A DNA stretch of 64,000 nucleotides. Origin: Apostichopus japonicus (lineage: Eukaryota; Echinodermata; Holothuroidea; Aspidochirotida; Stichopodidae). Below, in pieces: positions 47,501 through 63,862 of the stretch. Within the stretch, counting starts at the first letter, position 1. Every line of letters starts with the position of its first letter. The stretch lies in NCBI RefSeq assembly GCF_037975245.1, contig NC_092563.1, positions 10,753,001 through 10,817,000 on the forward strand. Direction: 5' to 3'. A program made the position numbers and the translations under genes. The notes beneath the pieces were generated by a model, which saw only the letters and a list, made by a program, of their open reading frames with translations, was not told the origin of the DNA and ran no database searches.

Positions 47501-50500
47501 CTGAGGGAAATTCCCTTGAAAAAGTCAACATTCAGATCTGTCACTGCCTTTTGAGCTGTCTCTGCAGACACATACTCACACTTGTAAACCAAGCTAGGGT
47601 CACCATTAAACCTGAAGGATTTTACTTCCCCTACTCTACCCATAAAATTCTTCAACTCTTCCAAGTCAATGTCCATGGGGATACCCTTAGCAGTTACAAC
47701 CTTACCTTCCATGGTTTCTATGGTTAAGCAAGGGAAGACTGGAGTAATATATATTAGTGTACACTCAGAAGGTCAAAAGTGTGAAGGCATGTGAAGGAAT
47801 AATGGATGTAAACTATTTAGGGTTATACTGTGAGGTAAGCTATTCTAGAAACCTCTCTGCAAAGACTGAAATGTATGCTACAGGCTCAGTTGTAACATTA
47901 GTATTACTCATACAAAAGCAAACTGGCCCAACCCTCATGGGAAGGTGTCACTTGTAATATATTTACGCCTGGTCACTGCATTTTTGGCCTGCTACACTGA
48001 CATGGAATCACTTACAGGTAGTCATTTGCTTTGTTGTTTGTATTAACATAACAGTGGTGCACATTAGGAAGCTACTGAAAGATTAATGGTTGAGGCCATT
48101 TCCTAAGAGAGTTTGATTTTGTAGGTGCCCAACATTGCAACAGGCAACTACATTTTCATCATTTATTTGCTTGGTACTCTTTTTGGTAATTTGAAGGAAC
48201 CAGGTAAATGATTCATCAAAGCTGTGGTAGTCAGAAATGTTGGTGAGGAGGGAGGAGTGGGCAGAATGATCCCCTTTCCACTCTATGCTCGTTTCCAGTT
48301 TGTATGACTATGCATAATGATCTTCATGGTACCTTTTTTCCTAGGAGTGATGGTTTTATTACAATGGAAAGTTTTGTTGACTTATGCAAAGCTTTGTTCC
48401 TTCCGGGTGACCTTCTGAAGCAGGAGCTGACAGAGACTGTATTTAAACAATACAACACAAAACAGGTAATGGTTGTATTATATCAACAAATCTGAGTTCT
48501 TGCATGTTATATCTGTATGAAGATGCTGGAATGTTCAAAGCTGCACCTGCGTTTGTGGTTTCGATGATAATTGTAACCTTTGCATTCATGATGGCGTATG
48601 TGTGTGTAAGTGTGTGCGCGAGCGTGCGTTTGATTTGTATTCTGACAGAGGACTTGACCAAAAGAATTCCAGGTCCTCGGATGTGATTTCTAAAGAATCA
48701 ATTAGAATTTTAATGTATGGGGTATTGTTAAGGTTAGGGTACGTGGATTTGAACAATGGAAAAATCAATGGGGTCCTCGGTCTGAATGAAAAACAAACGT
48801 GTGTGCGTGTGTGTGTGAGTGCTGTTGTGACGCTCAGCATGTAAACATGATATCTCAAAGACAATTTCATATTTGGTGTGTAGAAGTACCACATCAAGTA
48901 AAAGAAGCCTATTGTTTTTGGTGTAGGTCAAATGTCATTTGGGGTCACCAGGGGTCAAATTGTGAAAACCTTGTAAACACGATATCTCAAGACGGAAAGC
49001 TTGGGAGGACCTCATACAGTATTTAGTGTGTAGAAGTACCACATTGAGTACAAGAAACCAATTGTATTTGGTGGGGGCCAAAGGTCTTAGAACTGAGGTC
49101 ACCAGGGGTGAAATTGTGAAAACCTCATAAACATGATATCTCAAGAAGGGAATTATAGGCAGACCTTGTATTAAGTGTGTAGAAGTACCACATTGAGTTA
49201 AAGAAGCCTTTTGGTTTTGGTGAAGGTCAAAGGTTATTTTAATCAGAGGACAAATTATGAACCCTTATAAACATGTACACCCTCACACTATGCATTATGA
49301 CAGATTCATAAAGAAAACTGCTCATGTTACATCATCGAAACCACAATGCATTTTTGGTTCCTTGCTTTAGCAAAAGGAACCTATGCAGTCAGGTTGGCGT
49401 GTGTGTGTATGTATGTATGTATGTATGTGTGTACTTGTAAGACCTGTCAATCGGGGATAATCGTATGGATACACACCTTCCAACTGGGGATACACCCCCA
49501 AATGGGGATATCCCCATTTGTCAAATCCCCATTCTCAATGTGCGAAACCATCCACAACATCGCAGAAGTGCCTCCTTTAATTTTCTAAATGATTAAAAAA
49601 TTTCACCACTTTCATACTTCAAATCCGCATGTCTGGTGTGTTTGTTTAACAAAGATACAGTAGGTGTCTCAGCTCTGATTACTATAGCGCCCTCAGCTTT
49701 ATACACACGGATGACGCATGTCCCCAGTTAACAGGTTAAGAGAGATATACACGTTTTTCCCGGTTGACTACTACAGCAGCAAACACACTTCCCCAGTTGG
49801 ATACCAAAATGCCAAATACACATTAGTGTCTGCTTGTATATGCAGTGCTTACTACTATTTGACCATGTTGTCATCACTATACATGACATTGAACATGTGG
49901 GAACTGGGAACCTGAAACGTACAGTACCATTTGAAGATTACTGAATGGTAAGATATTATCTTTTTCTTGTTTTCAATCCATTTTGGTGATATTCCCTAGG
50001 TATATGTGGCTTTCATCCGTAGGTTCTTCCCCATTTTCATAGTAATACACCCGAAAGTAACTTGGAAAAGCTGTGCCAGGCCTAACAAGCTATATTCAGT
50101 GTAGGCTACTTGTTTTCTATTAGGATATAGTGTAAAGCATTACTATTAGCCTAATAGTATTACTATTAGCCTAACATCTCTAATATGCAACTAAACTCAG
50201 GCTTTATGTGATGTAGGATAGGTAGGCCTAGCCAATCAAACCAATTGTAAGATAAAATTGCCTAGCCCTAGAAAAGAGAAAGTATTTGGAGAGGTTTTTT
50301 TTTACATATATGCTAGGTTTCTTTGAACTTGAGGTGTCTATGCATTGTTCAAATACTAATAATTAAATAATTTTATCAAGTTTCATTGGTGCATGATGAT
50401 TACGGTAAGTTAAGAAGAAGTCATCTCTTAGGAATATGTATTTGAAACTACTATATAGGCATATTGTTGGAGTAACCATATTGTACATAATATTTAGCAC

Positions 50501-53500
50501 ATATGTTTTCATTGTTGATTTTCACAGATTTTCCACAGATTCTATGGACAAGTACGAGGCAACATTATTGTTAGCACTTTCTGCAGTGATATGTTGCATC
50601 CTTTTTGTTTTCCTAATTTTTGTGGTGGCGTATATTAAAGAATATCATATATAAATCGGCAGTGTAAGTATACATTGGTGACTTTATTATTTGACCCCAA
50701 AATTCACACAGACTGTTGCATTTCTACCTGTCAGTTCAAATATTAAAAGCAAACTGCAAAGGCTATACTACAAACCTTCCCTAAACAGACAGTTTGCTGT
50801 GCATCTACATCAATTAAATCACCATGTGGTAGTTATGTAGATTCTTAACGGTACCTTTTTACAATTTAGTCAGTTAAAAATCCCTTGATTGTCAAAGTCA
50901 CTGTTTACTGCAATGAACATTTTATCTTTCTGGTTTGACGTCTAAAGATAAATGACATTGTAATAATTATTTGTTTTATTTATTTCCTCTCTTTATAATT
51001 AGTGTTAAAGATGACATCTGGGCAAAAGATTAACAAACGAGTAAGTAAATTGATTGCTTTTTTTCTGTAATATACCTATGAATCTCTGTAGTCAACACAG
51101 TTATTAATTATTCTCTGTTACAGTTTAAGACTACTCTTGTAATGTATGCGTTCTATGTTTACTTCAATTCTAGGTAAGTTCACGCCTGCAGCTGCGAAAT
51201 GAGAAGTATCTACCTCTACATGCAGATCCTCCTGGGTTTATGGTGAAGTTACTACCAGAAAAAGGTATGTGAAGTGCTGCACATTGTTGGATCTATTCTG
51301 ACTATACATGTGTAAAAATCATTAAATAATTGCAGAGAGGTCATGTTTTTTTTATGGTTGGTCCCCCACGCTATCTCTTTTTCTCATTGGAAAACTTACC
51401 TTCATTTATGTAATTTGGATTGCAACATCCCCAACCCTTATTGAAATGCTTGTCTACATATCATCCACCAATTTTATCAACCTCAGGTGTAAAAGATTGA
51501 CTATAGAATTTCTCAGGCATTGTTGCATTGATTTATACTTTCTATTAATTTCTGAATAATACCAACTTCCTATTTGCTGATAGGTCGAGCAGTTTTTACA
51601 ACAAAAAATGTTTTACACGGGGAACCCTTACTTGCATATGGCGGAGAGCTTATTTCTGGGGAAGCTGGGGAAAGACGCGAGGCGAGAGAACAAAGTGGAT
51701 TCAGATATTTTTTTACCTGGAAAGGAAAACAACTGTGGTGAGTACTAAGAGTTCTCTGTATACATGCTACACATATATGTTAGTGCTTTAATACATAAAT
51801 ATCATGTATCTGTTTTGTCCTTGTCGCCCTGGAATTTTACTATATTTGCATAATATCAATTTCTTCTGAGTTTTATGAAACACAGCAAGTAATATAGGAG
51901 ATATACCTGCATCATGGGATAGTTTTTAATGTTATATCATGTAGTGAAATTTTTTGACAAGAAATTAATAAATTGTGAGACAAGTTTATATATTGCATGG
52001 ATTCTGGTACACGCTGTTATAAGTTTGTAATGCTGTATACTTTACAATAAAGCATATAGTACCAGAGGAGGAGATACACCTACAATTGTAATACATAATG
52101 TAATATCATATGGACTTTTGTATTGTTCCGTTTCATTCAATTGTATAGTATTCAATACTACATACAGTTTATACCATGTATCAGATACACCTTCAATTGG
52201 GGATACACCTGCATTTGGGATATCTTTCATGTTAATAGAAAGATATACACATAATATGTCCCCATATGATATAACATTAATGTAACACAAGTAAATGACT
52301 CATTTTAACAAATATGGATATATGTTCTCATGTGACATGAAAGATATCCCCAAATGCAGGTGTATCCCCAATTGAAGGTGTATCTGATACATGGTATAAA
52401 CTGTAGTATTGTATACTATACAACATGATTTAATGGAACAATACACAAATCCAAATGATATCACAAGTAAATGACTCATTTTAACAAATATGGATATGTT
52501 CTCATGTGACATGAAAGATATCCCCAAATGCAGGTGTATCCCCAATTGAAGGTGTATCTGATACATGGTATAAACTGTATGTAGTAAATTGTATACTATA
52601 CAACATGAATTAATGGAACAATACACAAATCCAAATGATATCACAAGTAAATGACTCATTTTAACAAATATGGATATGTTCTCATGTAACATGAAAGATA
52701 TCCCCAAATGCAGGTGTATCCCCAATTGAAGGTGTATCTGATACATGGTAAAAACTGTATGTAGTATTGTTTACTATACAACATGAATTAATGGAACAAT
52801 ACACAAATCCAAATGATATCACAAGTAAATGACTCATTTTAACAAATATGGATATGTTCTCATGTGACATGAAAGATATCCCCAAATGCAGGTGTATCCC
52901 CAATTGAAGGTGTATCTGATACATGGTAAAAACTGTATGTAGTATTGTATACTATACAACATGAATTAATGGCACAATACACAAATCCAAATGATATCAC
53001 AAGTAAATGACTCATTTTAACAAATATGGATATGTTCTCATGTAACATGAAAGATATCCCCAAATGCAGGTGTATCCCTAATTGAAGGTGTATCTGATAC
53101 ATGGTAAAAACTGTATGTAGTATTGCATACTATACAACATGATTTAATGGAACAATACACAAATCCAAATGATATCACAAGTAAATGACTCATTTTAACA
53201 AATATGGATATGTTCTCATGCGACATGAAAGATATCCCCAAATGCAGGTGTATCCCCAATTGAAGGTGTATCTGATACATGGTAAAAACTGTATGTAGTA
53301 TTGTATAATATACAACATGATTTAATGGAACAATACACAAATCCAAATGATATCACAAGTAAATGACTCATTTTAACAAATCTGGATATGTCCTCATGTA
53401 ACATGAAAGATATCCCCAAATGCAGGTGTATCCCCAATTGAAGGTGTATCTGATACATGGTATAAACTGTATGTAGTAATTTGTATACTATACAACATGA

Positions 53501-56500
53501 ATTAATGGAACAATACACAAATCCAAATGATATCACAAGTAAATGACTCATTTTAACAAATATGGAGATGTTCTCATGTGACATGAAAGATATCCCCAAA
53601 TGCAGGTGTATCCCCAATTGAAGGTGTATCTGATACATGGTATAAACTGTATGTAGTAAATTGTATACTATACAACATGAATTAATGGAACAATACACAA
53701 ATCCAAATGATATAACAAGTAAATGACTCATTTTAACAAATATGGATATGTTCTCATGTAAAATGAAAGATATCCCCAAATGCAGGTGTATACCCTATTG
53801 ATGGTATACATTGTATATTGTGTTGTAGATTATAGGCTTACAGCAATGTGAAATTAAAAATATGTAGAAACATGCATAAGATTGAATGTCACACTTAATG
53901 ACAATTGTGTTGCCGACGTTGGCCCAGTGGCTGCTGACCACAAGTTTGCCGCAAGCGACATGCCGCCCTCACACCACCAGCTGGCCGCTGCGGTGTAAGG
54001 AAGGCTCGCTGCTGCCGTCATGCTGCCTCTCTGCTGTCGGCGGCTTGCTTTCTGGGCTCTTGAAGCTTGTTCTTCACTTCATTTTATTTTGTTTCCTCTA
54101 TCTGTATACAGCCGAGATGCCTCTATTGAACCAAAAAGAAGCCCCAGGCTCGGAAGACTAGTGAATCATGGCTGGAAAACACAAGTCAATAGCAAAATGA
54201 AAATTGTTGAAGGACCTGACTCAAAGCCAAATCTTGTCTTATTTGCGTTGAAAGACATTCCAACTAACTCTGAGATCCTGTATGATTACGGCATTCCAGA
54301 TTCTTTCAAGTTCCCACAACCACCTGAATATGTTTTCCAACTAGAAAATGAAAAAGTGGCTGAAGGCCCCCCGACTGCTTCTCCAGACGATGTCATCGAT
54401 GACATGGAGGTCACAAAAGAAATGAGTGGTGAATCAGGCAGTGACTCAGAAGTTCCAGATTCTATCCCTGACAACGATAACACAAAAGATGACTTCTTAC
54501 CAGGATTGCCTGTGACAAGGTCTTCGAGAACCATTTCAGAAAGTATGAATTCTGAGAGAACACAGTCTAGCAAACAAAATGACGCAGCTTCATTAGACAC
54601 AGATGACATGGAGGTCACAGAAGAAATGAGTGGTAAATCAGGCAGTGACTCAGAAGTTCCAGATTCTACCCCTGACAATGATAACACAAAAGATGACTAC
54701 TTACCAGGATTGCCTGTGACAAGGTCGTCGAGAACCAGTTCAGAAAGTATGAATTCTGAGAGAACACAGTCTAACATACAAAATGATGCAGCTTCATCAG
54801 CAAAAGATGACATGGAGGTCACAAAAGAAATGAGTGGTGAATCAGGCAGTGACTCAGGCAGTGAATCCAGCAGTGACTCCGTCAGTGACTCAGAAGTCTC
54901 AGATTCTGATACTAACTATGATAACCCACAAGATCACTACTTGTTCGGATTGCCTGTGACAAGGTCTTCCAGAAGCATTGCAGATGCAGACAACAGAGAA
55001 CATAGAAGGAAACCGGTGAAAGAGGTGGGAGATGATGGCAGTTCTGACTCTGGAGATAATACCACTGGTAATGAAAGTAAGATCTATGTAATGAGAACCA
55101 ATAACGACGGAGAAAAAAGATGTTATGACAAGGTGGCATATTGTTTGTTCTGCTCAAAGCCACAGAAGAAATTGCAAGTTCACCTTGAACAACATGAAAC
55201 CGAGATGGAAGTTGGACAATACCAAGCAGAGAGATCAAAGCAACAGAGGCTCATGCTCCTGACAAAGCTACGGAACAGAGGGAATCATAAACATAACTAC
55301 GAAGTGATGGAAGAAGGAAAAGGAGGTCTTGTTGTTGTTTACAGGCCAAACTATGAGGCAAACCCCAATGACTACCAACCTTGCTGCCAGTGCTTAGGCT
55401 GGTATGCAAGAACAGAAATGTGGAAACATAGATGCCTCTTCAGTACCAAGGATAAAGATGGTATAACAACAAAGAAGAGAGTAAACAATGTGCAAGCTGG
55501 CAGGCTTTTGTTGCCACCAGCAGTCAATACACAAGTACCTGACTTACTTCATCGCATTTTGGCAGGCTTAAGACATGATTCTGTGGCATTATGCATCAAA
55601 AACGACAAGTTGATAGTGGATTTGGGAAAGAAGTTATCTTTCAAGCTGGCACACGATGAAGAAAACTTCAACAGCATTAGATGTAAATTGCGTGAAGTTG
55701 CTAGGTTGGTATTAGAGTATAGACTAACCACTGGCATAGATGATGCAGGCCTTGCAGCTCTCATTTCGCCAACTGCCTTTGATGATGTTTTGCATGCTGT
55801 GAGGCAAGTCTCTGGATTTAACAATGACACACATCTCTTCCAAACGCCCAGCTTAGCTTTAAAGCTTGGACATTCTTTGAAGAAAGCTGCAAACATATTG
55901 CTGAGCAGAGCAATAAAAGAATCAAGCTCTACAATTGAAAAGTCTAGCAGGGATTTCATCACCCTTTGTGAGAAAGAGTGGGACTTCCAAGTTTCTTCCC
56001 ATGCACTTCGAACCATGTACCAACAGAAGAGGAACAACCCAAAGATGCTTCCACTCACATCTGATGTCGTCTCATTATCCACCTACTTGCGCAAAGAAAC
56101 TGAAACCTACTTGGAAAGGTTGGATAGTGAATTGCCTGAAGTAGACAAGATGGATTTTTGGAAGAAGTTGAATAAAGTCATCTTGACTCATCTCATTGTA
56201 TTTAACCGCAGAAGACAGGGTGAAGTATCAAAGATGACTGTAGATGACTTCAATCAAGTCAAGAAAGGGGAATCACATCTGGTGGAAGGCCAGATGGAGA
56301 TGATGGCACAGTGGGAACAAGAGCTGGTGAAAGTTCTATGGAGAGTTGAGGTTGTAGGCAAGAGAGGAAGGACTGTCCCTGTTCTGATGACTGACTTTGT
56401 AAAGTCTAGCATCGACACTCTCATGAAATATCGCAATGGAGCTCAAGTCAGTGAAACAAACAAGTATTTATTTGCAGTAGCTAAGTTGGACACCAATTCA

Positions 56501-59500
56501 CATATCAGAGGGAGTGACTGCTTGCGTGAGCACTCAAATTTGTGTGGGGCAAAACAGCCAGCGTTACTGAGATCAACAAGATTACGGAAGCACATTGCAA
56601 CTATGTCACAACTAATGAATCTGCGAGACAATGAACTTGATGTTCTGTCAAACTACATGGGACACGATATCCATGTCCATCGCAACTTTTATCGATTACC
56701 AGATTGTGCACAGCAAGTTGCCAAGATTTCAAAGATTCTTTTTGCCATGGAAGGTAAAGGCGGGAACCCTGTCCAGTTGCTTGGAAAAGCAAAGAGCATT
56801 GATGAGTTACAGATTGATCCAAATGAAGGTAAATCGACACGAGGTTTGACCTAACACCTAAAGTAGATGTACAGTTTACTTTGTTATCTATGAGTTAGTC
56901 AAATTTGTATATAAGAGAGATTGGTTTTACATTCTTAATACAGTAGTTTTCATTCTTGGGCTAATAGCTATTTGTTCGTCTGTTACATCAAATCTGTGCC
57001 CTGTATTATTGGTACAGTATATTCGTTTATTAAGTAGCACGGGAAGAATAGTAAATGATGTGATTTTAAACATGAAGCTAATAAAGTGAAGTTGCTGTAA
57101 AATAGTCAAAGACTTATTTCGTTTATTGACAGAATTAGAAGTCAACCAGTCAATTGAGGAGTCCTCTGGTGAGGAGGATAGTGATGATGATTATCAGCCT
57201 GATCTGCCTGCTGGAAAAGGTAAGGTAGTAGCATATAATGAACAATTGCCATTACAACATATTATTATATTATTTAACTCGAGTATTTTTTAACAGAGGG
57301 AAATATGTAGTATATACTAGCCAAACAACATCTATCACAACAATCATTACATCTCATTTGTATCAAATATTTAATAATAACTGGCAAGCTTCGTTTCAAA
57401 TTTTAGACTTCATACAATGTTCATGCATGACCATCATATACAACTTTAATAGATGTGTTGTTTGGTGGTAAAAATAGATTGAATTGTTCAATACTACAAC
57501 AGGAAAGAATTCATGTGTTATCATGCAGTATCAAATGAACACAATTTCAGTTACAACATTTTAAAACTAGTAAGTTCCTGGATCATTCTAAAGTGGCTGA
57601 CAACATAGTTCATTTTCAGTGAGGCATCATTCATCTTGAAGTATGAATGTCATTGTAGTTAAAATCAATTGCATTGATATATCCTGGAGAAATATTTGAT
57701 TGACCCCATTTTAGGATATTAGTTTAGAGTGCTATAATTTGGCACTGACTAAAAGATGAATATTCTTCAATGCTGTAGGTATTGACACCTGCTGTCAGAA
57801 AGGGAAGAAATTCTTTGCTAATGTTAGTTAAATGTGTGTCTGTTTTGCAGTGCAAAAGAATGATGTTAACCAGATCTCATCAGCAGAATCAGAAGGATGT
57901 ATCAAAAGAGGTAAGTAAGATGGGAAGTTTAGAACAATGGCAGATATTTGTTGTGAAATATCCATCACTTCTACTTTTTCATATGACAAAGACTGTTTCT
58001 GAGCTGCATGGAATATGAAGAAAGAGCACAAGAAACTTGAAGGAATTAGAAACTTAAAACAGAATGTTATCAAGTAGACACAAAAGCATTCAGGGGTACT
58101 ATAACATGCTAAGAAACAAGTTTTTATCAAGATGCATTTAGCCTGACTTGAACTAGTATATTAATATTAGTTGGGGAATTTTTCAATTTGATGGAAAATC
58201 AATGTTTGCAATAGACATCAATACGTTTTATAACTAAATTGTATCATTTTTGCCTTATGAAGGTCAAAAGCGTAAAATGCTGGAAGGTTACGAGGAAAAG
58301 AGGAAGACACCTACAAGAAAGAAGTGGACAGAGCTGGAACGAACTGCCGTATTGAAACATCTTCATTCTTTTATTGAAAAGAGAAAGCTTCCCGGTAAGA
58401 GGGAAATTGACAAATGTCTTGCAGCTGAAAAATGCCTTCGAAACAGAAGTTGGAAGAATGTCAAGGACTTTGTTAGAAACCATATTAAAACCAGAGCGTC
58501 CACTTCTAAATCATTCAAGTACTGATTGTTCTTTTCTCTACCTTGACAGTCTCACTTTTATTCAAAACATTGTTTTCAAAGGTTATCATAGATTTAAATA
58601 AGTTTATGCATCGCTTTGACTACCTGTAGCTCTTGTTAAATTTTACTGTTTTGCTGTTTTGAGTGTTACTGCTAATTTAATAGTTAATACCATAGTACCA
58701 AAAGTTTAAGATAAGGACATCCTTATGGGAAACAAATAGTTATTTCATTATGAAATGAGACATCAGAGAAAAACAAGGAGTAAATAGAACACTAGAATGG
58801 AAGAAACCTTTCAAGTTTCAAGTATATAATATATTTACATGCAACAGATGGCATGGAGCTTTAAAATGCATATATACAAGTAAACAATGTGTTATGACAT
58901 ACAGATTGATCTGAACTAAAGAACTGACACATGAAAGATTTGAAACAACAACCAGAATACTGTTTCATTATTGTCTATACAATCAGGTTGATTCCATTGA
59001 GTTTAGTTCAAGCTGGTCTTGTTCTGTTCTACTGTTACATATAAAAGATAAGTGTTTTGTTATTGTTTGTTAGTTTTTATTTTCTTTTGTTGCACCTTTC
59101 CCGTAAACTGTTATTCGGAACTTAAGGATAAATGCTCCTTACCTTAAATACATAATGCTCCTCAACCTTGAAAAGTTCTGGAAAGTTTTTTTTCCCTCCA
59201 GTATGTCAAACTTGAAACTTTTCAACTACAAGTAATCATGCAGTTAGATCAATGATACCTACAGGTGCTTGGACCCAGAAAGATAATGCTCTCAAACATG
59301 TTAAAATATCATGTGAAATATTTAATGCATGAAGACTCATCACTCATGAAACATAGTTTCTCTAATAACTTGCCAAGAATTTTACTGGTTTTATCACAAC
59401 TATAACAAGAAAAGAAATATAATATGTGATGTTATCAGTGCATGATTGTGAATGATGATAGGATCATAGTTATGTCCTTGGAATCTCTTCAGATACAGAA

Positions 59501-62500
59501 AACCTAACATTTGTTACCCAGTATGACTGCAAACATCTTTTGCAACATTGTTTATGTAATAAAGGCATTAAGAAATGCATTTCATTGTATTGTTTTATTT
59601 CTTCATTTGTCTATTATTGATCATTAAGGGTATACTTAGTGCATGCTTTCAGTCACCCCAATGCCCCTCCCCCCTGTATTTGTTGTATTTTTTTTTTGGC
59701 TTTTAAGGAGCTAGATAAATTTATATGAGTATCTAGATGCTACTCCAAGATGAATCATTAGATTCACACTTCTGATACCATCATTCCAGACAAATGTTGT
59801 AATTATTCATATTTATTTGTGAAAGTTCTCACATCTTTAGTAAGTAATAGCAAGAGAAGGGCAGTTTCTCCAAGAGTTCATAGTATAAAAGTATTAGTGG
59901 GGATATCCCCCCTTTCATTGTAGTGGAACAAACTATGGAGTGTGTCTACATTTTCACTGTTTAGTGTCAATGTCCTGTGTATCCCCAATTTACTAGCTAT
60001 AACACATACAAATATGCTGGTAAAAACCTAAGGAAACTTAAACATTTCTGTATGCCATACACATGAGGGAACCTCAACAGCAATAAGTGTGACTTGTTTA
60101 GGCTGAAAGTTACTAAACGAAGAAGTCCCCCATTCCCTGGTTCCAAACCCATATCCCCAATTGACAGGTCTTACAAGTATGCGTGTATGTGTGTGTGTGT
60201 GTGTGTCTGTGACACTTGCTTGGGTACGCTCTATCTCAATAAGGGAATGTTGGATTGAGGCCAAACTTGGACTATAGATCCGCCATATGGAGAAGGTGTG
60301 CCCTATTGTTTCTGGTGCCCACAAAGGTCACCAAAGGTCAGTTATGGTCCAAAAACCGAAAATATTAAAACTGCAATAACTCCCAGTGCCAATGTGTGAC
60401 AAGATTGATATTTTGGGACAAGTTGTGAACTGGTTAGGGGAGCATTTTCAAACTTAACGGTCATGTGATCAAAGGTCACCAAAGGTCAATTAATGATAAA
60501 AAACTAGTATTTTTGCGATAACTTGAGAACGAAATGTCTGTTAGGGTTGGGAGTTGCTTCAATGTTATTCAATTGTCGACCCGCATCTGGGTGACCCTTG
60601 ACCTCAATTTGACCTCTGGTGACCTTTACGTGTTTTTGGGGATTTTTACAGTTTTGATGCTATTTTCAGATGTCAAAGGTACCTTCTGATCATAAATGTC
60701 AATAGGTTGACCCCGTGTGACCTTTATGTGCGAAGTTATATGAGGTCAAAGTTTTTCGGTCAGAGTTAGGATGGTTGTACAGACTTGTCGTTTTGTTTTT
60801 TGGAATCAGGAGATTAAACTATATCTGAAACCAAGGTCAAAAGGTCAAAGGTCACATTAGAAAAAATGTGCTTATTTTGGGAGGAAACGAGCAAAAAAGG
60901 AAATGTTTGGTTTTGATGCTAGATTTGGATATCAAAGGTACCTTCCGATCAAAAATGTCAATTGGTTGACACCCATGTGACCTTCGTGTGTGAAGTTATA
61001 CGAGGTCAAAGTTCATTTTCAGACATTTAATGCAACAACTCCCAGTTCCAAGGTGTGACATGGTTGATATTTTTGGACAAGTTGCAAATGGTATAGGGAA
61101 ATATTTTCAAACTTAACGGTCATGTGATCCGAGGTCACCAAAGGTCAATTAATGTTAAAAAACTAGTATTTTTGGGGCAGAAAATGGGCAAAGAAAAAAT
61201 GTTTGAATTTGTATAGTTTGATGCTCTAATTTAGGTCTCATCAATCAAAAATGTCAATAAGTTGACCCAAGGTGACCTTTGTATGTTAAGTTATATGAGG
61301 TCAAAGTTAATTTTCAGACATTTAGTGTAATAACTCCCAGTGCCAAGGTGTTACACAGTTGATATTTTGAGACAAGTTGCAAATGGTATAGGGGAATATT
61401 TTCAAACTTAAGGGTCATGTGATCCGAGGTCACCAAAGGTCAATTAATGATAAAAAAACTAGTATTTTTGCGATAACTTGAGAACAAATTGTCCGTTAGG
61501 GTTGGGAGTTGCTTCAGTGTAATCCAATTGTCGACCCGCATCTGGGTGACCCTTGACCTCAGTTTGACCTCTGGTGATCTTTTCGTGTTTTGTGGATTTT
61601 TACAGTTTCGATGCTATTTTCAGATGTTAAAGGTACCTTCTGATCATAAATGTCAATAGGTTGACCCCTGGATGAGCTTTGTGTGTGAAGTTATATGAGG
61701 TCAAAGTTAATTTTCACACATTTAATGCAATAACTCCCAGTGCCAAGGTGTGACAAGGTTTATTTTTTTGGACAAGTTGCAAATGGTATAGGGGAATATT
61801 TTCAAACTTAACGGTCATGTGGTCCAACGTCACCAAAGGTCAGCTAATGTTAAAAAAGTAGTATTTTGGGGGGAGAAAATGGGCAAGAAAAAATGTTTGA
61901 ATTTTTACAGTCATGCTCTATTTAGGTCTCACCTTTCAAAAATGTCAATTGGTTGACCTTCGGGTGACCTTTGTGTGTGAAGTTACATACAAGTTCAAAG
62001 TTAATTTTTTTTAATTTAATGCAATTAAATCTCAATGCCAAGGTGTGACATGGTTGATATTTTGGGACAAGTTGTGAACGGGGTGGTGGAACATTTTGAA
62101 ACTTAAAGGTCATGTCATCTGAGGTCACCAATGTTATCATATCTGTTGACACGCTTGTAGGTCTCTTATATTTCTTACATTTTCGACGCCATATTTAGAT
62201 CTCAAAAGTGCCTTTTGATCCAAAATCCGATCACATTTTGTGATCACAAAAGTGTTGGCTATAGTGTTGGTTACTTTATGGGAACATGTAGGACCACAAT
62301 TACTTGGACTATTTGAGCCCAATCTTGCTTGATAATATTATGTGTATTGTCATATACCCCAAGCAAGGAACCACAGTGCCCTTGGGCTCTTGTTGCATTT
62401 TGGTTTAACTTTCAAAGTTGGTACTTTTACAGATGGTTTTGTTTACTAGTTTTCCTTTTGATTAACCCATTGACTTAGTTGTTGTCTCCAGTTTGATATA

Positions 62501-63862
62501 ATCTGTTCTACACAATATGGGATGAAAATCTTCAGGTTTGTAATTTGTAACAGACAAATTGAGAATGTAGCATTACAATTCTGGTATCATAAGATAATAA
62601 AAGGTGGTATCGTAAGTTTAGGGAGTTAGATCAAAGTAACTTTTATAGAATAGTTCAGAGTTATTGATTCGTTGTCGAAGGCTAAAGGAATCAATGCGAT
62701 TAGTGGTGTCATGTGTGCGTGTATGCCTATGTGTAACCTTCCTTATAAACATATTTCAAGAACACTAATGATGATAGACCTTCTAAGGCTTCTATAATGG
62801 TTACAAGGTTGCTATTGCTTGCATGTGAGGTTAGCAGGCAAAATGTCAAATACCTTGTTGATATTTTGTTTGGCCTGGTTTGATTTGGCAAACAACAGAG
62901 TGAAAATGTCATCATGAAAGTATAAGTGGAAATGTTTTCATTTTCTATACTGTAATATGTTAATCATGTAACTACAGCGAAAAAATAGTATTTCTACACC
63001 AAGAGTTGATGAAATTCTAACTACATGAAACAGTGACAGCCAACAAAAGTTAGCAAACATTCCATATATATCACATATGATAATATGCAGCTGGTGAACA
63101 AAATGCATCCTGATGACATCACATACCACCTGTGATCCCCTTCCAGAAGTATCAGTGGGTTTAACCATATCTGAACTTGGAGAAGGGTTTCAAATAACAC
63201 ATGTAAAATATTTTCTCTGAAATAATTTTTACATTTTCTGCCACTGGAATATCCCTTTAATTGATAAGCAGTTTAAATACATTGTATGACTTGTATCCAA
63301 ATTTGCTACTGTATTAACATTGTTATGTCACAGATTCACTTCATTATGACATATATAAATTGAATATATCATATACCCTTAAGACCAATGTACAGATGTT
63401 GCATCCTAATATCATTTGTTGAGAGAAGCCTACTTAAAAGACTCCAAACGCTCTTTTACCATTCCAAATTCCTTATATAAATTATTTAACACTGGTATTG
63501 TTTTGGTTCACTTTTATTTTAAAACTAAGCTCATTCACTGACTATGAGTTAATCACTGGAGAAAGGCTAAAATTACTTACTACTGTAGCTCATGGCCGAG
63601 TCAAAAAGGCCTGGCAATAATACTGGCAGCCCTGATGAAGTGTATCTACTGTATGACAGCACAACCATGAATCAAGAATCCTCATGTGTTGGAGAGGTTA
63701 AATGTCATTCAAGGTCACCATGCATCAAGGTCTTTAACAGTTTGCTTTGCAATCTGTTGAGTAGTCAGTGAACTGAAAACTGTATTTGCTTCTCTTTTCA
63801 CCCAGGATGGAAGAATGACAGAAGATGAATTCAAAAGCTGTTGGAAAACATGGATTTATCCT
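44543..63862 (+). CDS. EF-hand N-terminus of a host gene, tentatively nicotinamidase (partial, runs off the window)
   Basis: Three coding exons join in frame: 44543-44580 (ATG at 44543, exon from 44538), 48345-48465 and 63806-63862. All have AG acceptors and GT donors, and the last donor is GTAAGT at 63863. The first 72 residues contain two EF-hand-like calcium-binding loops. The first is SENGSDGFITMESF, with a spacing that is not canonical. The second is NTKQDGRMTEDEF, a regular 12-residue loop. The second loop is split exactly by intron 2 in phase 0, and joining the exons restores its spacing. The following CWKTWIYP resembles the linker before the cysteine-hydrolase domain of animal nicotinamidases (Naam type), which turn nicotinamide into nicotinic acid for NAD salvage. 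That identity is from memory and needs the downstream exons. Introns of 3.8 and 15.3 kb each carry a mobile element. Confidence 0.6.
44581..46430. other. Intron 1 of the EF-hand gene, left part: AGGTCA-family repeats
   Basis: 44840-46310 contains diverged units with phrases such as 'catacttggtatgtg', 'ataactca' and 'aaaggtcat', plus GT-rich heads near 45000 and 46075. No exon or enzyme is seen. Confidence 0.5.
46431..47996. mobile_element. TGTAG-ended TIR element (Ginger-like) carrying a gag-type gene, 1566 bp, TSD CTGA
   Basis: The left arm starts TGTAGCCGGCCAAAAACGCA and the right arm, reversed, starts TGTAGCAGGCCAAAAATGCA. Both continue with GTGACCAGGCGTAAATATAT and, after a 19-base gap present only on the left, CACCTTCCCATGAGGGT. 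CTGA abuts both outer ends (46427-46430 and 47997-48000). TGTNR ends with 4-bp duplications are the published hallmark of Ginger DNA transposons, whose integrase is related to that of Ty3/gypsy elements. No integrase is present, so the copy is non-autonomous. It contains a gag-like gene instead. Confidence 0.75.
46820..47712 (-). pseudogene. PNMA/Ty3-type gag remnant with N-terminal RRM-like domain
   Basis: The ATG at 47712 opens a 102-residue frame. It has an RRM-like pattern: a beta strand before GIPMDIDLEELKNFMGRVG, then further alternating strands and helices. It ends at a stop at 47404. PNMA-family proteins have a comparable small domain before their capsid. Downstream on the same strand, in shifted frames, capsid-like words of Ty3/gypsy Gag can be recognised (the Trp/Leu-rich CLL-type helix near 47250, and near 47160-46940 the YGTVESG-type and FWKGL-type motifs). 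At least two frame changes and stops break it, so no full Gag can be made. Whether the RRM-like part is still expressed is unknown. No protease, reverse transcriptase or integrase was seen. Confidence 0.6.
48345..48465 (+). CDS. EF-hand gene, second coding exon
   Basis: The CTTTTTTCCTAG acceptor and GTAATG donor bound 121 bases that continue the EF-hand frame (SDGFITMESFVDLCKAL, then a helix). The exon ends in phase 0 inside the second loop. Confidence 0.7.
48627..48799. mobile_element. 173-bp TIR element inserted in a GT microsatellite (copy 2)
   Basis: Same family as 37896-38083: outer arms CGTTTG.../...CAAACG, inner AGAGGAC.../...GGTCCTCGGTCTGA, and shared GGTATTGTTAAGGTTAGGGT. GT-type repeats flank both sides again. 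Confidence 0.75.
48800..49431. repeat. AGGTCA-family tandem units and GT microsatellite left of the large element
   Basis: About three units with ACACGATATCTCAAG, CCACATTGAGTACAAGAA and AGGTCAAAGG-type words match 39060-39560. The segment ends in a GTGTGTATGTATG tract that the large TIR element interrupts. Confidence 0.7.
50531..50663 (+). other. Possible 5' leader exon with a 36-codon membrane micro-ORF
   Basis: An AG-ended pyrimidine stretch (TTTTCCACAG, to 50538) and a donor (GTAAGT at 50664) bracket an exon-like segment. It contains ATG 50544 to TAA 50652-50654, encoding 36 residues with one hydrophobic helix (LLLALSAVICCILFVFLIFV). A further donor-like GTAAGA at 49948 could end an earlier leader exon. 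It may be the 5' leader of the SET-recombinase transcript, or chance. Confidence 0.3.
51011..58525 (+). CDS. SET methyltransferase-tyrosine recombinase-Myb fusion protein (1133 aa, 7 exons)
   Basis: Exons 51011-51040, 51174-51264, 51584-51737, 54112-56828, 57133-57219, 57851-57910 and 58263-58525 (stop TGA) all have GT-AG borders and join without a frame break. Residues about 38-155 form a KMT5A/SETD8-like SET domain. It has GRAVFTTKNV, YGGELI, the CRDAS...RLGRLVNHG segment (N110-H111; the usual NHS is NHG) and the catalytic-type EILYDYG (Y149, Y151). Residues about 188-395 are acidic and contain three 68-residue repeats starting DDMEVT. C436/C439/H449/H453 and C516/C519/H531/C533 look like zinc-binding sites. 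Residues about 730-965 are a tyrosine recombinase domain: R793 (RQGE), R917 (TRLRKH, with Thr at the usual His), H943 (MGH) and Y952 (FYR). Residues 1064-1120 resemble a Myb/SANT fold (W1068, W1110). Expected activities are lysine methylation and DNA strand exchange; both are inferred. No stop or frameshift is seen. Confidence 0.82.
52050..53815. repeat. 178-bp tandem array in the main intron of the SET-recombinase gene
   Basis: About nine direct units (GATATCCCCAAATGCAGGTG near 52338, 52517, 52696, 52875, 53053, 53231, 53410, 53588, 53767) with a period of 178 bp. One unit at the left edge (about 52075-52235) lies in the opposite orientation. The phrase GGTGTATCCCCAATTG and its neighbours resemble the left end of the host element. 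Minus-strand open frames across it are artefacts of the repeat. Confidence 0.93.
54112..56828 (+). CDS. Main exon of the SET-recombinase gene
   Basis: This 2.7-kb exon holds the C-terminal half of the SET domain, the repeated acidic linker, both zinc-binding motifs and the whole recombinase domain. It starts after CTCTATCTGTATACAG. It ends GAAG|GTAAAT; without splicing there the frame would stop at 56852-56854. The upstream part of the open frame (54020-54111) is intron: the splice at 54112 is what restores the SET motif C-R-DAS. Confidence 0.85.
58526..60151. other. 3' untranslated and right flank of the large element
   Basis: No second gene is seen. GGGGATATCCCC-like words recur at 59899 and GTATCCCCAATT near 59979, as in the left subterminal region and the intron array. 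Confidence 0.5.
59558..59563 (+). terminator. Candidate poly(A) signal of the SET-recombinase gene
   Basis: AATAAA about 1.03 kb beyond the stop codon, still inside the element, followed by a T-rich stretch. It fits a 3' end, but no cleavage site can be proven. Confidence 0.4.
60180..62400. repeat. AGGTCA-dense repeat block with DR4-type motifs
   Basis: After a GT microsatellite come about five diverged copies of a unit with 'taactcccagtgccaa', 'gatattttgggacaagttg', 'cggtcatgtgatc' and 'gaagttatatgaggtcaaag'. AGGTCACCAAAGGTCA (half-sites separated by four bases, DR4) is found at 60325-60340, 60473-60488, 61132-61147 and 61427-61442. 60834-60854 has three half-sites in a row (spacers 2 and 1). 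It is the right half of the repeat interrupted by the large element. Confidence 0.8.
62401..63805. other. Right part of EF-hand intron 2, no gene seen
   Basis: AT-rich sequence with a faint AGGTCA-family fragment near 62680-62840 and another near 63690-63730. No exon other than 63806-63862 is recognised. Confidence 0.45.
63806..63862 (+). CDS. EF-hand gene, third coding exon
   Basis: TTCTCTTTTCACCCAG precedes and GTAAGT follows. The 19 residues DGRMTEDEFKSCWKTWIYP complete the second EF-hand loop begun 15.3 kb upstream. Confidence 0.7.

Follow-up and report, generated by a model that had tools for sequence, protein, structure and literature searches.

Introduction

Transposons are usually viewed as targets of histone methylation, and SETMAR, in which a SET domain is fused to a DDE transposase, is a single domesticated gene. 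Among the elements that encode a tyrosine recombinase (YR), animal Cryptons (CryptonA/CryptonI) are described in the main text of Kojima and Jurka (2011, PMC3212892) as having neither terminal repeats nor a C-terminal domain. DIRS retrotransposons encode reverse transcriptase, and some carry a DNA methyltransferase (DNMT), according to passages of PMC5890265 and PMC4157794. Endogenous nimaviruses, as treated in the main text of PMC10871703, are large viral genomes in (TAACC)n, with telomere-specific YRs that typically carry a C2H2 motif. Here, we describe an element of Apostichopus japonicus that appears to represent a superfamily, referred to as SET-YR, carrying a histone-methylation writer fused to its recombinase. 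It lies in a stretch of 64,000 nt (GCF_037975245.1, NC_092563.1 positions 10,753,001-10,817,000, forward strand), the whole of which is called the window.

Results

The window gene and its protein

Splicing of seven exons with GT/AG introns yields a protein of 1133 amino acids followed by a stop codon, exactly as in the original prediction, and all 14 exon-edge contexts are letter-for-letter identical in the closest copy on another chromosome (C16). The predicted protein consists of a KMT5A-like SET domain, acidic repeats, two Cys/His (zinc-knuckle-like) motifs, a YR with the catalytic residues R793, R917, H943 and Y952, and a conserved tail; up to the recombinase, this agrees with what had been proposed. 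A Pfam scan of the whole protein returned SET at E 9.3e-12 and no other family at E up to 1, and the best PDB matches of the SET domain were to KMT5A (E 3.5e-16; 5w1y, 1zkk and others). Since exon 4 by itself encodes both the second half of SET and the complete recombinase, in a single open frame, the fusion is independent of splicing. The acidic linker contains a 204-bp coding tandem repeat at window positions 54398-54857, which is longer in the C16 copy (open frame of 1429 versus 951 amino acids).

Genome matches were sorted into about 20 family labels (G), which are our own grouping; the window family is G1, and several families are multi-copy. The YR label was chosen because Pfam Phage_integrase matches 3/17 family members (best E 2.8e-5; the window YR itself gave none) and because the catalytic residues are conserved. 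Across 21 aligned YR sequences, R793 is kept in 20, R917 in 21, H943 in 20 and Y952 in 20, and two CxxC motifs are present in 21/21. Families G16-G18 are distant (22-24% identity), and G18 shows no tyrosine in the alignment. Searching viral contigs with the YR profile gave 52 pattern stretches, none confirmed as a relative, and scans against PHROGs and NCBIfam returned weak, unrelated-looking names only. A single-sequence AlphaFold model of the YR region (predicted local distance difference test, pLDDT, 36.7) was discarded.

The C-terminal tail is conserved in 7/7 other families tested. Its proposed identity as a Myb/SANT-like domain found no support: Pfam detected Myb in 0/5 unaltered tails and weakly in a sixth (0.016), and a fold search gave no PDB match at E 0.001, a weak test given the low-confidence model (pLDDT 60.9). 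Similar proteins with zinc motifs, YR and tail are present, unnamed, in fish and marine invertebrates.

Ends, copies and mobility

As predicted, 28-bp terminal inverted repeats (TIRs) lie outside the gene on each side, their arms agreeing at 27 of 28 positions. The TIR pattern (up to 3 mismatches) has 11 matches in the 671.6-Mb genome versus 0 for a reversed control. Eight of these 11 lie within ~5 kb of a SET or YR match, which argues that the ends are not, as a class, unrelated miniature inverted-repeat transposable elements. The motif GGGGATA/TATCCCC occurs four times in the left 369 bp, four times in the right 300 bp and 17 times in an array in the intron, and is absent from the other 8.5 kb of the element; nine more copies lie in the remaining 53 kb of the window. 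In family G3, 10/11 copies of TGGGGAC in the 3.3 kb examined fall within the last ~370 bp. We regard these terminal clusters as candidate protein-binding sites.

Searching the genome for the YR yielded 103 matches, and only the top candidates among them were scored. The C16 copy has a 99% identical YR and both TIRs unchanged. At 15,337 bp it exceeds the window element (10,748 bp), in part because its tandem arrays, both intronic and in the acidic linker, are longer; its reading frame is out of register with that of the window owing to a one-base gap close to where exon 4 ends. When the window flanks were joined without the element, 40/40 scored matches (from 1899 candidates at first look) spanned the junction at 95-98%, with 39 covering the entire query and one covering 1-232. 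Since the joined flanks match uninterrupted sites across the junction, the element has split a repeat of high copy number. At synonymous sites of the YR, divergence is 0-2% within each of four closely related pairs of copies (G1, G2, G4, G10), which points to recent activity. Multiple loci thus share the same ends, an uninterrupted target exists, and the catalytic R, R, H and Y are in place, as expected of a YR transposon and not of a single-copy gene. By these genomic signs the window element is mobile and belongs, as a single copy, to a large group with recent activity; the earlier proposal, that a mobile element carries a KMT5A-like domain, stands.

Target site and orientation

The element sits inside the TG tract of a different repeat, one of high copy number, which extends from 49351 to ~62373 (right end by eye). 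Besides the TG tract, this repeat has GGTTCCTTGC-type ends and tandem units of the GGTCACC type, and it is itself a repeated landing pad of SET-YR elements. On either side of it, EF-hand-like coding stretches were seen by eye at ~48344-48464 and 63806-63862, and their joined translation gave weak PDB matches (best 3.3e-4); these stretches would fit an insertion in an intron of a host gene, as initially proposed.

Ends were tabulated for families G1, G2, G3, G4, G6 and G10. All of them lie in TG/TGTA tracts (right 13/13, left 10/10), with TG on the coding strand on both sides, and such tracts make up 0.24% of the 157 kb examined. The tract at every tabulated right end starts with TATG or TGTATG. 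It belongs to the target and not to the terminus, because inverted termini would read CA on the other side. Ends were located independently of TG for G1 (TIR), G2 and G6 (homology breaks) and the right side of G4 (TIR-like motif). Two copies of another family, on C5 and C17, share the TG tract alone in their left flanks, and their right flanks diverge beyond the tract. The fixed orientation fits a recombinase using a directional spacer, and integration into TG repeats would account at least partly for insertion targeting, without the SET domain.

Linkage of SET and recombinase across families

Among 74 YR matches of at least 900 bp, 59 have a same-strand SET match upstream at no more than 45 kb. 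The control counts were 2 for the same strand downstream and, for the opposite strand, 0 upstream and 1 downstream. The distance from SET to YR among linked matches has a median of 4.7 kb and a maximum of 31 kb. A search with SET proteins and a local check added four G5 copies and one G6 copy, giving 64/74 linked matches. SET sequence is present in the other 19 of the 20 family labels, G16 being the exception.

Conversely, 44/110 SET matches are unlinked to a YR; among these are genes of the host as well as exons for the first half of SET that belong to linked elements. KMT5A-like SET copies without a YR match within 45 kb downstream were seen at C13:9229171, 9269198 and 9309225 (in tandem, 40 kb apart), C12:27791321, C9:22105704, C10:15257384 and C22:5202300-5212299 (L075), the last with an acidic repeat open reading frame (ORF) and no YR in 10 kb. 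C17 (37.2 of 671.6 Mb) holds 27/103 YR matches, several of them pieces of one copy; it is possibly a low-recombination or sex-linked chromosome.

Origin and conservation of the SET domain

Host KMT5A, located on C15 near 21.104 Mb, has a phase-2 intron within the Cys codon preceding V-D-A, and the window element has the same intron (C-R-D-A). This intron is also clear in eight other families (G2b, G3, G4, G5, G10, G12, G13, G19), and G17 is compatible with it, with a less typical donor. This is most simply read as capture, at the DNA level, of a KMT5A-like gene. Thirteen transposon sequences have an acceptor immediately ahead of GRGV, which host KMT5A lacks. When SET domains were compared with host KMT5A and three further SETs of the host, KMT5A was the nearest in 12/14 families; G8 is a tie and G10 is nearer to one of the others. 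A SET tree places G7 and G8 apart from KMT5A, weakly (79/97).

The histories of SET and YR correlate little (Mantel r 0.16, with 1258 of 10000 permutations as high; 14 families). Because the trees agree so poorly, a single SET capture with strict co-inheritance is not established. In G19, the YR (C19:16117896) groups with G12/G13 and the SET (C19:16135586) with G2b/G4, both supported, suggesting possible domain exchange or two adjacent elements. We do not claim a domain swap here because this SET lies 16.5 kb from the YR and may belong to another element. The window SET retains NH and YDYG. In two between-family comparisons, SET nonsynonymous divergence (dN) was 0.32 and 0.38 versus synonymous divergence (dS) of 1.4 and saturation, and this conservation across families suggests that the domain is in use.

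Table 1. Positions of the element's parts and of its target within the window.
Feature	Position	Strand	Evidence or remark
Seven-exon gene, 1133 aa	51011..58525	+	splice model; exon edges kept in C16 copy
Exons 1-7	51011-51040, 51174-51264, 51584-51737, 54112-56828, 57133-57219, 57851-57910, 58263-58525		
Exon 3, SET domain first half	51584..51737	+	splice model, Pfam, PDB matches
Exon 4: SET second half, acidic 204-bp repeats, two Cys/His motifs, tyrosine recombinase; single open frame	54112..56828	+	
Exon 7, conserved C-terminal tail (low-confidence three-helix model)	58263..58525	+	
Recombinase region of cross-family alignment A1	55499..56836	+	extends 8 bases beyond exon 4 donor
Left terminal inverted repeat	49432..49459	+	TIR match 27/28, genome pattern search
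Right terminal inverted repeat	60152..60179	-	TIR match 27/28, genome pattern search
Left terminus, four GGGGATA/TATCCCC motifs	49432..49800	+	motif count
Right terminus, four GGGGATA/TATCCCC motifs	59880..60179	+	motif count
178-bp tandem array, intron 3, bearing terminal GGGGATA/TATCCCC motif	52279..53805	+	17 counted in 52180-53805
Left part of interrupted target repeat: palindromic TTTTTGGTTCC segment, then (TG)n/(TGTA)n tract	49351..49431	+	
Right TG tract of target	60180..60205	+	
Rest of interrupted target repeat	60206..62373	+	end by eye: AAGCAAGGAACC

Discussion

We consider it probable that the window element is a DNA transposon of a YR superfamily, whose single protein combines a SET domain of KMT5A type with an acidic linker, two zinc-knuckle-like motifs, a YR and a conserved tail, and which would move through a circle with a TG spacer and methylate a lysine with its SET domain. 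Its anatomy, mobility, target, orientation and conserved catalytic residues are read directly from the genome. In the mechanism that we propose, the protein would bind the motif clusters at both element ends, and the YR would join these ends into a circle whose junction would consist of the two inverted arms around a short TG-containing spacer. This spacer would recombine with a (TG)n/(TGTA)n repeat at a putative crossover site, so that insertion would be confined to such repeats and always take the same orientation. At the sites that the protein binds, its SET domain may methylate a lysine, probably on nucleosomes and, by analogy with KMT5A, at H4K20. Because the terminal motif is repeated in the gene's own intron 3 in the window family, we judge feedback on the element's own expression the most likely role of the SET domain, with moderate to low confidence.

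Several points weigh against this reading. The element is known here from genome sequence alone, and its fused mRNA is predicted. Ten of the 74 YR matches have no linked SET, namely the second G6 copy (which the local SET check did not cover), all three G16 copies and six others, and the YR profile had no match in PDB at E up to 10. A right end of the window family at C16:19660195 (L006) has no TG flank, which makes the overall count 23/24; the G3 and G10 ends and the G4 left end were located partly via TG tracts; and three of four fetched pieces from the G8 and G15 pairs hold no TG tract, the ends being unplaced there. The exact crossover is not placeable within the repeat. Among the five families with counted motifs (G1, G2, G3, G4 and G6, with right parts only for G3 and G6), the motif-bearing intron array is found in G1 only. 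In 10/18 families read, ND replaces the NH of KMT5A and may impair catalysis; the window family has NH. Finally, the changes between close pairs are too few to test for selection (pooled dN/dS ~0.6 in both domains).

Other explanations concern either the role of the SET domain or the nature of the element. The domain could serve transposition, by marking target or donor chromatin or by coupling recombination to a cell-cycle stage, rather than regulate expression. Its fusion to the YR in one frame, their linkage in most families and the known cell-cycle role of KMT5A speak for this; however, TG specificity is possible without SET and the ND substitution is common, so that we hold such a role to be somewhat unlikely. 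That substitution, together with the G16 copies lacking a linked SET match, would also suit a structural or histone-binding remnant without methyltransferase activity. A remnant is nevertheless unlikely in view of the NH and YDYG retained by the window family, the SET sequence in 19 of 20 family labels and a dN far below dS in both between-family comparisons.

Filing the element with Cryptons found no support. A usual-sense Crypton or DIRS-type element would indeed have a YR with these catalytic residues and could account for the Phage_integrase matches in 3/17 members. We find this assignment improbable, given TIRs and a C-terminal domain that animal Cryptons lack. DUF3504, a relative of the Crypton YR, is absent from the Pfam listings of 17 members (E up to 1), and none of its 9 genome matches falls at a YR match. 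Neither reverse transcriptase nor RNase H was found in the nine proteins scanned (the window protein and eight family ORFs, with intronic ORFs outside the scan). It is highly improbable that the copies spread by duplication of a larger carrier repeat and not by their own recombinase. The window and C16 copies do sit in the same host repeat, with the first 49 bp of the left flank identical, but their shared right flank is ~93-97% identical versus mostly 98-100% for the interior outside its repeats. In addition, the C5 and C17 copies share only the left TG tract outside their ends, and uninterrupted host repeats are abundant.

Beyond the window element, we tentatively propose, at slightly less than even confidence, a new superfamily of YR DNA transposons with about 20 families in one animal genome. 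In these, a KMT5A-derived SET would be a usual, long-conserved working part, integration into TG microsatellites would be directional through spacer homology, and the recombinase would tether a histone methyltransferase to the element's own ends and, in the window family, to its own intron. The element may be mobile DNA that brings along its own domain for editing chromatin, and whether setting its own chromatin state benefits an element is directly testable here. TG-repeat specificity with fixed orientation would moreover make the YR a naturally occurring site-specific recombinase from a eukaryote, one whose target is very common.

Our literature search, with most subscription papers outside its reach, found no description of such an element. 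The terms 'SET domain', 'methyltransferase' and 'Myb' are absent from the main text of PMC3212892, 'SET domain' from the passages on Cryptons of PMC5753468, and 'SET domain', 'methyltransferase' and 'KMT5A' from the main text of PMC10871703. What appears new is that SET-YR elements, at 23 of the 24 ends located in six families, adjoin (TG)n/(TGTA)n with TG on the coding strand, as directional integration by a recombinase would predict. With animal Cryptons, as the main text of PMC3212892 presents them, the element shares the nature of a DNA transposon and a YR as mobility enzyme; unlike them, it has 28-bp TIRs in two full copies and a tail conserved in 7/7 other families. It resembles nimaviruses in YR-linked, microsatellite-specific integration (main text of PMC10871703), and YR-bearing elements are therefore able to specialise on microsatellites. 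A YR, inverted repeats and, in some cases, a methyltransferase domain are shared with DIRS elements (passages of PMC5890265 and PMC4157794). In the same passages of PMC5890265, the domain captured by DIRS is a DNA methyltransferase, and YR elements are therefore able to acquire modifying enzymes; the window element carries a SET domain instead. KMT5A/SET8 has the SET domain and one phase-2 intron in common with the window element and lacks a recombinase. Unlike in SETMAR, the SET domain here is a usual part of mobile YR elements.

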